Part shown: piece by piece, positions 4,311-60,658 of the stretch
How the letters are laid out: each line of letters starts with the position of its first letter
Position numbering within the stretch: the first letter of the stretch is position 1
DNA from: an uncultured Psychrobacter sp.
GTDB lineage: Bacteria; Pseudomonadota; Gammaproteobacteria; Pseudomonadales; Moraxellaceae
Direction of reading: 5' to 3'
Assembly: GCA_947495055.1 (NCBI GenBank)
Contig: CANLXO010000012.1
Span: 47,250 to 111,249 of the forward strand
DNA: 64,000 bases
Notes under the pieces: model-generated
Databases searched by the model: none
Seen by the model: the letters and a program-made list of their open reading frames with translations, nothing else
What the model was told of the DNA's origin: nothing
Translations under genes and position numbers: made by a program

Positions 4311-4747
4311 ATCTACCTCATTAACTAGAATCAAAAGCTATCGTTTGCTATGCCATAATGGCAAATAATCGGTGCCTAATTCAATAGGGTGCTGTCGTTA
4401 AAACTAATGGTAAGTCGTTAAAGCTTATTATAAATAGTATAGCCACGCGATCAAAATGCATTGATGGACTACCTGCGCTTATCAATTAGCAGTATATCAT
4501 AATGGGGCTATCTATTCGTTTGTCAAGAGTGCGTAAGATAACGACATTTCGTTAAGTGTTAGCCCTACAGTTTTACTAGTCCTCTTGATAATAAATGCAT
4601 GAATTTAAAATAGTTATGTAATCGTTTGCCTATTGGTGATGCGTTTGAAATAATACCGCGCTATTAGTGTCTGTTTGATAGTCAATCATGGCATTACTGA
4701 GTCAAATTATTGACTCCTTTTTTACAAATATTGAGACAAAAAAAGAT
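4311..4747. other. intergenic region, divergent erpA / yheS promoters
   Basis: About 440 bp with no coding sequence. It holds the erpA promoter candidate. The yheS side is AT-rich, but I could not pick out a convincing promoter there. An in-frame ATG at 4688 extends the yheS frame into this region. Confidence 0.5.
4427..4454 (-). promoter_or_regulatory. candidate sigma-70 promoter of erpA
   Basis: On the minus strand TTGATC (plus 4449-4454) and TATAAT (plus 4427-4432) are separated by 16 bp. It lies about 115 bp upstream of the erpA ATG and points at it. No IscR-like operator was recognised. Confidence 0.5.
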
Positions 4748-6751
4748 ATGATCGAATTTAAAGACGTAGGCGTGCGCCGTGATGGTCGTGAGTTATTTTC
4801 AGGGGCAAGTTTTCAGCTGCACCCTGGTCACAAGGTAGGCCTGACGGGTAATAATGGCACAGGAAAATCAACTTTGTTTGCTCTACTACTTACGCAAATG
4901 GGTACAGGCGATACCGAGGTCACGCTTGATAAAGGTGAGGTGAGTATCCCTGACAGCTGGCATGTGGCGCACATGGCGCAGGAGGTTGGCGCTAGTAGTC
5001 AGACGGCGATTGATTATGTCTTAAGCGGTGACGAGCAGTGGTATGAGATTAACGCGGCGCTCAATGATTTAAGTACAGTTAGTGATGAGCAAATCGGCGT
5101 TTTGCATCAGCAGTTCGATGAGATTGATGGGTATCGCACGCCAACCAAAGCGGCACAAATTATGGCGGGGCTTGGCTTTAAAACCAGTCAGCACGAGCTG
5201 CCTGTAGAAGGGTTCTCTGGCGGTTGGCGCATGCGCTTAAACCTTGCCAAGACTTTGATGAGCCGCGCGGACTTAATGTTACTCGATGAGCCAACTAACC
5301 ATTTGGATTTGGATGCTATTCTTTGGCTTGAGACTTGGATTAATGCCTTTACCGGTTTAGTCATTGTCATCTCGCATGATCAGGCTTTTTTGGACGCCAC
5401 TGTCGGACATATTTTGCATGTGGAACAACAAAAAATCACCCTTTATACGGGTAACTATCAGCAGTTTATCCGTACTCGTCATGAGCGTATGGCGCAGCAG
5501 CAGCAAGCCTATGAAAAGCAGCAAGCGACCAAAGCACATCTCGATGATTTTATCCGCCGTTTTCGAGCTAAGGCCAGTAAAGCTAAGCAAGCACAAAGTC
5601 GTATCAAGCAGCTTGAGCGTATGGCTGAGCTGTCACCTATGATGGCAGACAACCCATTCTCTTTTCGCTTTTATCCCCCTGCCAACATGAGCTCTCCCCT
5701 TATCGAGATGACGCAGGCCGATATCGGTTATAGTGATACGCCACTGCTCTATAACGCTAGCGTACAAGTCACGCCCGATACGCGTCTAGGTCTGCTAGGT
5801 ATGAATGGCGCGGGCAAATCAACGCTAATTAAAGCATTAGTGGGTGAGCTTAAAGTATTAACCGGTAGCTACCGCGTCTCTGACACCCTAAAGCTTGGCT
5901 ACTTTAACCAGCATCAAATGGACGCCTTGGATGCCACTGCAACACCCATGCAGATGTTACGCCGGCTAGCAGGCAAGACCTCTGACGCCGAATTACGCGC
6001 GTTTTTGGGTAGTTTTGACTTTCGCGGTGACCGTATCGATACTGCAAGTGAGCTATTCTCTGGTGGTGAGCGTGCCCGTTTGACACTAGCACTAATCGTT
6101 TGGCAACGTCCGAACGTTCTGGTTCTTGATGAGCCGACCAACCATTTAGACTTACAGATGCGCCAAGCATTGACTGTTGCCTTGCAAGGGTTTGAGGGAG
6201 CAGTGGTACTGGTCTCGCACGATCGTGAACTTATCGCTAACGTCTGTGACGAGCTGTATCTGGTGCACGATGGTCAGATTGATGAGTTTGATGGTGACAT
6301 CAGCGACTATGGTAAGTGGCTGGAACAGAAGCGTAAACAAGAGAATGCTACAGACAAAAGTACTGCTAATAAAAAAAGTAAAAAAGAGAGTAAGAAGTTT
6401 GTTTCACGTGAAACGAGCAATACTCCAATGGCAAAAGATACTCAAGATCACAAGACATCAGCGCTTAGCAAAGAAGAGCTACGCAAATTAGCGGCAGAGC
6501 AACGTAAGCGCACTGCGCCCGTTCGCCGCGAGATCGAAGAGATAGAAAAAGAGCTTGAGAAGATCAATGACAAGTCAGCGAAACTAGAAAACAAGCTTAC
6601 TGATACTGACCTTTACGAAGAATCTCGCAAAGCTGACTTGATGAAGCTACTTGATGAGCAAACCTCATTGCAGCAGCAGCACAGCGACTATGAAGAGAAG
6701 TTACTGGTTGCCATGACGACGTTAGAGGATATGGAAGCTGAGTTTGAATGA
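4748..6751 (+). CDS. yheS: ABC-F family ATPase, YheS type
   Basis: About 667 residues. A soluble protein with two ABC nucleotide-binding domains and no membrane segment, as in ABC-F ribosome-associated ATPases. Domain 1 has Walker A GNNGTGKST and signature GFSGGWRMRLNLA; domain 2 has GMNGAGKST and FSGGERARLTLAL. Each has a LLDEPTNHLD or VLDEPTNHLD Walker B. A charged inter-domain linker (RFRAKASKAKQAQSRIKQLER) is the ABC-F P-site-tRNA linker, and the C-terminus is a Lys/Glu-rich coiled coil. The family usually starts MIxF, so the ATG at 4748 is preferred; the frame begins at an ATG at 4688. A parS-like palindrome lies within codons for VSRET near residues 552-556, in the poorly conserved stretch before the coiled coil. 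Confidence 0.93.
   Translation: MIEFKDVGVRRDGRELFSGASFQLHPGHKVGLTGNNGTGKSTLFALLLTQMGTGDTEVTLDKGEVSIPDSWHVAHMAQEVGASSQTAIDYVLSGDEQWYEINAALNDLSTVSDEQIGVLHQQFDEIDGYRTPTKAAQIMAGLGFKTSQHELPVEGFSGGWRMRLNLAKTLMSRADLMLLDEPTNHLDLDAILWLETWINAFTGLVIVISHDQAFLDATVGHILHVEQQKITLYTGNYQQFIRTRHERMAQQQQAYEKQQATKAHLDDFIRRFRAKASKAKQAQSRIKQLERMAELSPMMADNPFSFRFYPPANMSSPLIEMTQADIGYSDTPLLYNASVQVTPDTRLGLLGMNGAGKSTLIKALVGELKVLTGSYRVSDTLKLGYFNQHQMDALDATATPMQMLRRLAGKTSDAELRAFLGSFDFRGDRIDTASELFSGGERARLTLALIVWQRPNVLVLDEPTNHLDLQMRQALTVALQGFEGAVVLVSHDRELIANVCDELYLVHDGQIDEFDGDISDYGKWLEQKRKQENATDKSTANKKSKKESKKFVSRETSNTPMAKDTQDHKTSALSKEELRKLAAEQRKRTAPVRREIEEIEKELEKINDKSAKLENKLTDTDLYEESRKADLMKLLDEQTSLQQQHSDYEEKLLVAMTTLEDMEAEFE
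6400..6415. promoter_or_regulatory. parS-like ParB binding site inside yheS
   Basis: TGTTTCACGTGAAACG matches 15 of 16 bases of the bacterial chromosomal parS consensus TGTTTCACGTGAAACA, and the 14-bp core GTTTCACGTGAAAC (6401-6414) is a perfect palindrome. By simple base counting a 14-mer is expected about 0.0002 times in 64 kb. It lies in a low-conservation part of the coding sequence, where DNA-level selection would be tolerated. Confidence 0.8.
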
Positions 6752-59150: not shown

Positions 59151-60032
59151 ATGACCGATGCAAAGGATAATGCAAATAGCGACACTAGTAATAACACCAA
59201 AAGTCACGGCAGAGGTAACGTTTATGCTGCTCAAGTACGCCAAGAGATAGAGGCATGGAAAAACCCTGATCAAAATATAATAGATAAAACCTTTGCAGCT
59301 TTAAGTGCGCCAATAGACAAGGCAGGTGATGCGCTAATGAACGCGCCGCAATTAGGCGAGACGCTCAAGCAAGCGACGCAAAAAGCCATTGTAACTCTAA
59401 GCGATGCAGCAAACTGGACGCTAGATACCCAAGATGCTATAGAGGCTTATCGCAATACGCTGGGCAATAGTGACTCGGTCAAATCTTTCGATGACATTGC
59501 AAGCTTAGATATCGCGGATGTTGATGAGCAAGTGACATTATTTAAGAGCAAATACGTAGCACTGACAAGTGCACAAGGCGTAGCGACAGGAATGGCGGGC
59601 TGGGCGGGTATCAGTGTTGACGTGATGGGACTAATCACCGCCAATCTGCGCGCTATCGGTGAGTATGCTACTTATTATGGTTTTGATATGAGTCAAAAAG
59701 GCGAACAGCTATTTGCCATGTCACTGCTAGCAGTTGCGACTTCTGCGTCTGCTGATGAGCGTAAAGCGGCGCTTGAGGATACGGCAAGCTTAACTCAAGA
59801 CCCTGAGACTAAGGCATTTAATAAAATAAATGAAGAGCTAATGTCGCGAATACTTAGACAGACGGCAACCAAAGTGGCGACCAATATGGTCAAAACCAAA
59901 GCGGCGCAGATTATTCCTGCGGTAGGCGCTGTGGTCGCAGGCGGCGTCAATGCCAATTATACGGCAAGTGTGTGTGAAGCGGCGTATCAGTGCTACCGCG
60001 AGCGTTTTTTAGATCGTCAAGAGTCAACCTAA
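59151..60032 (+). CDS. EcsC family protein
   Basis: 293 residues from the ATG at 59151 (AAGGAT seven bases upstream; the frame opens earlier at 59061 without merit). The EcsC pattern is visible: an Ala-rich helical first half, then TSAQGVATGMAGWAGISVDVMGLITANLRAIGEYATYYGFD (in parts) and, near the end, TKAAQIIPAVGAVVAGGVNANYTASVCEAAY (in parts). EcsC in Bacillus is a product of the ecs ABC locus with unclear function. No ecsA/ecsB genes are near. Its stop overlaps the alkB-like stop by four bases. Confidence 0.88.
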   Translation: MTDAKDNANSDTSNNTKSHGRGNVYAAQVRQEIEAWKNPDQNIIDKTFAALSAPIDKAGDALMNAPQLGETLKQATQKAIVTLSDAANWTLDTQDAIEAYRNTLGNSDSVKSFDDIASLDIADVDEQVTLFKSKYVALTSAQGVATGMAGWAGISVDVMGLITANLRAIGEYATYYGFDMSQKGEQLFAMSLLAVATSASADERKAALEDTASLTQDPETKAFNKINEELMSRILRQTATKVATNMVKTKAAQIIPAVGAVVAGGVNANYTASVCEAAYQCYRERFLDRQEST

Positions 60033-60658
60033 ACGAGCATACGCCGAAAGGTTAAGCTGATACGGCCCGAATCAACAGTTGTGGTCTTGGTAATGCTATG
60101 CTTCCAAAACGTTTGCGTATCCCCACGCATGACAAGCAGCTGACCTGACTTAAGATAGAGCGCAGCTTTGACAGGCTTGTTTTGGTGTCTAATAGTTTTG
60201 TGTTTAAAGACAAACTTGCGTGTGGCGCCCAAAGACAGCGCTGCAATAACAGGACGATCGCCTAGCTCCTTTTCATCGTCAGCATGGTAGCCCATACCCT
60301 CAGCTCCTGACGGATAATAGTTAAGCAAGCAGGAGTTAAAATTGGCCTTAATACCTCGCGCTAGTAGTAATTTCTCGATAAGTTGTTTCACATGAAACAC
60401 AGCGTCTGACCAAGGAATGCTCGAATGCGTATGGCCTGAATAGCGATAGCTTGTGCTGTCGTCACCCATCCAGACAATTTTGCGGCTAGTGATATGTGTC
60501 TTGCCAAACAAAGTCACACGATCAGATTGCCAAGGCAGGTCAGCCAACAAAGCTTCGTATAATGCATTAGCGTCCTCAATCACCACACCAAAATCATTTA
60601 AAATACCATCACAGGGTAGTAAATTGTGCTGAGGGGTGAGCGGGAACAAATCAGTCAT
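60029..60658 (-). CDS. AlkB-like 2-oxoglutarate/Fe(II) dioxygenase
   Basis: 209 residues. The AlkB family removes alkyl groups from DNA or RNA bases by oxidation. Iron ligands are His125 and Asp127 in GMGYHADDEKELG plus His187 in WKHSIT; the oxoglutarate-binding Arg199 and substrate Arg205 lie in DSGRISLTFRR. The NYYPSGAEGMGYH and LSLGATRKFVFK stretches are family signatures. Bacterial members of this size resemble ALKBH2/3 more than E. coli AlkB. A parS-like site lies in the coding region. Convergent with the EcsC gene by four bases. Confidence 0.9.
   Translation of the reverse strand: MTDLFPLTPQHNLLPCDGILNDFGVVIEDANALYEALLADLPWQSDRVTLFGKTHITSRKIVWMGDDSTSYRYSGHTHSSIPWSDAVFHVKQLIEKLLLARGIKANFNSCLLNYYPSGAEGMGYHADDEKELGDRPVIAALSLGATRKFVFKHKTIRHQNKPVKAALYLKSGQLLVMRGDTQTFWKHSITKTTTVDSGRISLTFRRMLV
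60384..60399. promoter_or_regulatory. near-parS site inside the alkB-like gene
   Basis: TGTTTCACATGAAACA differs from the parS consensus TGTTTCACGTGAAACA by one base at the centre. It is 54 kb from the stronger site at 6400. A chance hit at this level in 64 kb is not impossible, but two such sites in one window are unlikely. Confidence 0.5.

Follow-up and report, generated by a model that had tools for sequence, protein, structure and literature searches.

The palindrome found inside a yheS-like gene of an uncultured Psychrobacter sp. can be read with high confidence as a chromosomal parS that belongs to a set of about 16 putative ParB-loading sites around oriC. The window, i.e., the whole stretch of DNA analyzed, covers 64,000 bases and corresponds to positions 47250-111249 of contig C12 in an assembly (G000) of 2,926,329 bases. 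The finding itself is of an ordinary kind, parS inside genes being normal, and is unusually well documented here by evolution; the more notable part is the combination of an ori-distant parAB with a near-fixed parS array. The yheS site shows clearly how a centromere-like element can be kept letter by letter inside a variable protein stretch, and lets selection at the level of DNA be separated from selection at the level of protein, and with an ori-distant parAB and a wide origin-near parS array the importance of parAB linkage and of parS number becomes testable.

The 14-bp core, GTTTCACGTGAAAC, is an exact match at 6401..6414 (no strand assigned) and its codons are read in frame within the ORF 4688-6751, giving the peptide V-S-R-E-T. 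With one additional base on each side, the 16-mer TGTTTCACGTGAAACG at 6400..6415 (likewise unstranded) has 15/16 letters in common with TGTTTCACGTGAAACA, which is also the parS of B. subtilis. This TGTTTCACGTGAAACA is the consensus parS used with Caulobacter ParB, and its 14-bp core is identical here (PMC7383237). The sequence equally matches the chromosomal parS palindrome TGTTNCACGTGAAACA given in section 4 of PMC7022226. The difference from the consensus TGTTTCACGTGAAACA lies in the outermost base, which is G here and A in the consensus; the flanking bases are variable among relatives, as tallied at 53 of the 56 exact yheS sites described below, and many sister sites are centered on CATG. 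A 14-bp parS core palindrome had originally been predicted at 6400..6415 within the YheS coding sequence, with a chance expectation of about 0.0002 in 64 kb; the exact 14-mer was found at 6401-6414, and recomputing the expectation (about 64000/4^14 = 0.0002 exact copies per 64 kb) gives the same value. At up to three mismatches the window contains 2 matches vs 2.07 expected, and weight is therefore placed only on near-perfect matches, namely the exact one at 6401-6414 and a one-mismatch copy at 60385-60398.

Regarding the host gene, the listed ORF (687 aa, starting at 4688) displays Pfam ABC_tran in two stretches together with ABC_tran_Xtn, and we assume that its product is a YheS-type ABC-F protein, a name that comes from the original prediction. 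The true start of this yheS-like gene is probably 4748 (M21), 60 bases after the listed one, so that the gene would occupy 4748..6751 on the forward strand, since stops are found upstream in relatives: in 49 of the 60 genus genomes there is one stop in the frame matched to the yheS ORF, and in 11 named loci a stop lies 6-12 codons past the start of a match beginning before M21. The palindrome sits in the variable linker of YheS, as predicted, presumably because this linker tolerates the residues VSRET. It lies near the 3' end of yheS, away from the gene start, and this bears on the possibility that it mainly regulates yheS through a ParB that tunes transcription, a function compatible with a parS role. 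Such repression is described in P. aeruginosa, where ParB represses genes beside the intergenic parS3 and parS4 (PMC7022226), but given the position of the site at the end and not at the start of yheS, and the presence of sibling sites in unrelated genes, a mainly regulatory role is improbable. Among named yheS genes, that of Psychrobacter sp. WY6 (L068, titled as a complete genome) is the closest, with 94% similarity in its best segment, which suggests an organism in or near Psychrobacter; this gene extends over only 560 aa from the start of the match, so it may carry a frameshift or a sequencing error.

As one of an array of parS, the yheS site should have counterparts gathered around the origin, for which dnaA was used as the marker; motif counts were compared with those of the reversed pattern. 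When up to two mismatches are allowed, 25 sites are found in the genome (5 exact, 11 with one mismatch, and 9 with two mismatches) vs 23 matches of the reversed control, and two-mismatch matches, being near chance, were rejected as evidence; four of these nine lie outside contigs C12, C15, and C22. All 16 sites with at most one mismatch are located on these three contigs, which represent 196,154 bases or 6.7% of the assembly, and C22 carries dnaA, dnaN, recF, and gyrB (dnaN and gyrB being named by reading). Three relatives have a main contig that begins with dnaA (G028 and G004 consist of one contig, G042 of two). If the contigs are taken as circular, all of their 43 sites within one mismatch of the motif (15, 14, and 14) are located between about -23 and +114 kb relative to the dnaA end, vs a single match of the reversed control in one genome and 0 in the other two. 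In these relatives the yheS site is found 47, 61, and 67 kb from the dnaA end, and their gene order suggests that in the genome under study it lies at about 62 kb plus a contig gap from dnaA. Exact sites are present in all 60 genus genomes, 1 to 11 in each, with 0 matches of the reversed control in each. Several copies are thus clustered near oriC, and the origin-proximal location predicted for the window agrees with both the dnaA gene on one of the parS contigs and the 47-67 kb distances in relatives; the matches with at most one mismatch gather at dnaA and are not scattered, in the genome itself and in three relatives. Contrary to a common expectation, parAB lies away from these sites, the parB of this genome being on contig C2, off the parS contigs C12, C15, and C22.

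Much of this arrangement resembles that of P. aeruginosa, in which parS1-10 are palindromic ParB sites, four of the ten being close to oriC and nine of the ten being predicted within coding sequences (PMC4368675). The consensus in that species is TGTTCCACGTGGAACM (PMC5098823), vs GTTTCACGTGAAAC and GTTTCACATGAAAC as the main forms here, each accounting for 31 of the 79 sites in five mapped genomes. Unlike in P. aeruginosa, the dnaA-near sites here span more than 100 kb and parAB is ~1.0-1.4 Mb from dnaA where measured in the genus. In P. aeruginosa, parS is reported to require a position inside a zone of about 650 kb around oriC (PMC5098823), and the sites of the three relatives would be inside such a ~650-kb zone. 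Among the papers listed in literature searches, which did not include the key survey (Livny 2007), none dealt in its title or the beginning of its abstract with chromosomal parS or parAB position in Psychrobacter, Moraxella, or Acinetobacter.

The genome harbors a single HTH_ParB match (C2:274027-274326, locus L096), within an ORF of 398 aa (L096 1303-2499) that combines ParB_N, HTH_ParB, and ParB_C domains with a GERRW motif and that was aligned with the Spo0J and Caulobacter ParB structures at E values down to 2.5e-37. The residues equivalent to R173 and G201, absolutely conserved in ParB (PMC7383237), are present in this protein and in 21 of the 21 family ParB aligned. The frame adjoining parB upstream, incomplete at the end of the stretch, matches AAA_31 and CbiA and is ParA-like, and a Walker motif occurs in the ParA stretches of 19 of the 21 family members; MotA_ExbB and ExbD genes follow parB. 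A full-length SMC frame (1269 aa, 773 bits) is found on C9. A cognate ParB with parS-reading residues is thus encoded in the genome together with a ParA. Two Caulobacter parS-contact positions differ in this ParB, with Q162 replaced by H and S172 by A. The former change was rejected as the cause of the CATG centers, since H is found in 21/21 family ParB, including those of genomes that yielded CACGTG forms only, and the latter, found in 18/21, was rejected as evidence as it follows kinship.

CACGTG cores are used by proteins other than ParB, and as ParB binding is predicted here, the palindrome might be used by another DNA-binding protein. This is very unlikely, however, as the 14-mer equals the consensus parS core letter for letter (PMC7383237), the sites cluster near dnaA, and the one HTH_ParB match of the genome has the parS-type key residues. 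A related palindrome, the Noc binding site (NBS), is read by a ParB paralogue (PMC7383237); the NBS, TATTTCCCGGGAAATA, differs from the present site, and the single HTH_ParB match has R and G at two switching positions, so that the combination of TATTTCCCGGGAAATA with a Noc carrying Q, K, K, and R at four positions is not what is found. The yheS site is very probably a working parS, to which ParB is predicted to bind. By analogy with other bacteria, from which binding, clamp loading, segregation, and SMC loading are all inferred, ParB encoded elsewhere on the chromosome would bind the palindrome as a dimer, close as a CTP clamp, and slide onto adjacent DNA; ParA would then move the ParB-DNA complex, which would also load SMC, and the outcome would be an early segregation of the origin region. 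Selection would in this case act on the letters of the DNA and not on the YheS protein.

The conservation of the site was assessed on named yheS loci, taken as the best 80 of 123 relatives found: 56 have the exact site, 6 have it with one mismatch, 1 has a symmetric two-letter variant, and 17 are without it. Four of the six one-mismatch copies have the CATG center, a form common at other sites. The 30 exact sites among 30 closest-genome loci do not constitute an independent tally. A first yheS alignment was made without 12 short reads, 11 of which were restored in a later one, and the 62 aligned sequences in which the site deviates by no more than one letter (from 61 loci plus the window) share a single codon phase. 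Silent changes were counted in 60 aligned sequences, on a tree built without the linker, after exclusion of L068 (broken frame, site exact), L063 (site shifted by the alignment), and L086 (site aligned elsewhere). In the V, S, and R codons, the four-fold third positions show 0 changes in 60, 59, and 57 sequences, vs a mean of 12.0 changes over 213 four-fold columns on the same tree, and only 1 of 69 other V, S, or R four-fold columns has zero changes. The E codon is unexceptional, with 1 change for a comparable mean of 6.5 (6 of 39 E columns have one or none), whereas the T codon has 7 changes at its third base, which lies immediately beyond the palindrome, and the 13 columns directly downstream have 7 to 17 each. 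With 3 changes, the 14-nt site window is the lowest of 637 in-frame windows, the next lowest having 5 and the median being 50. Silent columns that are invariant within the site and variable just outside it point to selection on the DNA that stops at the edge of the palindrome; the expectation that the palindrome be kept in yheS of relatives while codons drift is borne out, silent positions included.

With regards to the peptide, VSRET is present in 57 of the 80 aligned sequences, as it would be were the letters kept for YheS and not for the DNA. Nevertheless, this reading is hardly credible: the third bases of the V, S, and R codons carry no silent change in 57-60 sequences where comparable columns have ~12 changes, a silent change occurs among the 57 VSRET sequences only in L060, at the E codon, the 14-mer is also kept between genes and in other genes that read it in a different phase (peptide FHVK), and other YheS proteins of Psychrobacter and Moraxella lack VSRET. 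An explanation by chance or by recently shared ancestry, even for related species sharing the gene, can practically be dismissed in view of an expectation of 0.0002 in the window, of three silent positions unchanged where comparable columns of that tree average 12 changes, and of downstream linker columns that are not invariant (13 columns with 7 to 17 changes each).

Loci without the yheS site represent 10 of the 71 Psychrobacter-titled and 7 of the 8 Moraxella-titled ones, and a relative, G030, has a two-mismatch copy in yheS, so that this particular site may be lacking. Four of the 17 loci without the site in yheS (L074, L077, L079, and L083) have a site at another place in the locus, and the same holds for three of the seven such Moraxella-titled loci (L088, L091, and L093). 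In Moraxella boevrei the linker contains GTTCCACGTGGAAC in the same codon phase, with the palindrome retained although both of its arms differ. A single clade of the yheS tree groups 61 site-bearing sequences, from 60 Psychrobacter-titled loci plus the window, and a separate pair made up of M. boevrei and L086 bears the site or its symmetric variant; the site could be old and then lost, or could have been gained twice. L086, whose yheS pairs with that of M. boevrei, is a contig titled Streptomyces cinereus JCM 3040, and this record looks mislabelled or contaminated.

The second parS-like site of the window, GTTTCACATGAAAC, has one mismatch and a CATG center and is located at 60385..60398 (no strand assigned), inside an AlkB-like 2OG-Fe(II) oxygenase gene (60029..60658, reverse strand; ORF with Pfam PF13532). 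At most one mismatch from the motif and in the homologous place, it is found in 10 of 15 genomes, the own one included, and is absent from G042, G030, G050, G027, and G051. This site at 60385-60398 was missing from the original list. Sister sites were mapped in five genomes and checked in up to 15, counting GTTYCAYRTGRAAC and one-mismatch forms; beyond the Pfam labels, the names of their genes (recF, mnmE, ribE, rsmB, yigZ, etc.) are our own presumed assignments. The recF gene has two sites, at a near-constant residue, in 10 of the 10 genomes where it was examined, and mnmE, ribE, and rsmB each have a site at about the same residue in 8/8 genomes. The site of the yigZ-like gene is found in 10/10 genomes, in a two-mismatch form in 4 of them. 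Those of a LysE-type gene (2/7 genomes) and of a GDSL lipase gene (1/3) are poorly shared. The conservation in recF and mnmE was set aside as independent proof, since the peptides VFHMK of RecF and NVSCETG of the MnmE GTPase, which we take to be protein-function motifs, may be held by the function of the protein. In P. aeruginosa, a parS with two mismatches failed to support segregation (PMC5098823), so that the GTTCCACATGAAAC form of the yigZ-like gene and comparable sister sites may be unbound.

Operons of parAB close to oriC have been described (PMC7022226), and proximity of parAB to oriC and to parS is usual, if not strictly defining, for such systems. This proximity was not found where the distance was measured in the genus: dnaA and parAB are separated by about 1.0-1.4 Mb in the 15 of 60 genomes that have both genes on one contig. 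For 13 of these (G002, G004, G021, G027, G028, G030, G033, G034, G036, G039, G042, G050, and G053) the distance is 0.99 to 1.44 Mb by the shorter way round if circular, and for G029 and G051 it is 1.38 and 1.24 Mb from dnaA to parB along one contig; in the remaining 45 of the 60, the own genome included, dnaA and parB are on different contigs. In a draw of 41 genomes from the family, seven of genera g2, g4, and g10 have parAB 12 to 20 kb from dnaA, and seven of genera g5, g8, g9, and g11 have it 0.68 to 1.86 Mb away; neither dnaA nor parB was found in G091 of this draw. The number of GTTYCAYRTGRAAC sites is 3, 2, and 2 in three genomes with ori-proximal parAB (G060, G062, and G068) and 4, 10, 15, 12, 12, 16, and 18 in seven with ori-distal parAB (G067, G095, G066, G088, G063, G033, and G036), with 0 control matches in both groups. 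Against this trend, which concerns ten genomes only and is uncorrected for kinship, G067 is distal with 4 sites, and one of the 10 sites of G095 is ~1.08 Mb from dnaA. As a tentative hypothesis, for which the case falls a little short of even, parAB may have left the origin region in this genus and in g5, g8, g9, and g11, genera that might include Moraxella and Acinetobacter, and parS may have grown from 2-3 sites to an array of usually at least 10, near-fixed in recF, mnmE, ribE, rsmB, yigZ, and yheS. If true, this would provide a natural test of whether the linkage between parAB and oriC matters and of why the number and position of parS are held.

Weak second ParB-like matches were observed in two genus genomes (G021:C1:46542-46739 and G037:C3:6371-6619), perhaps from mobile elements. 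The ParB of the genome under study is ~100 aa longer than its open-frame counterparts (296-302) in three genomes with ori-proximal parAB, the extra length preceding ParB_N, and two other ori-proximal genomes have longer ParB open frames (449 in G084 and 406 in G076).
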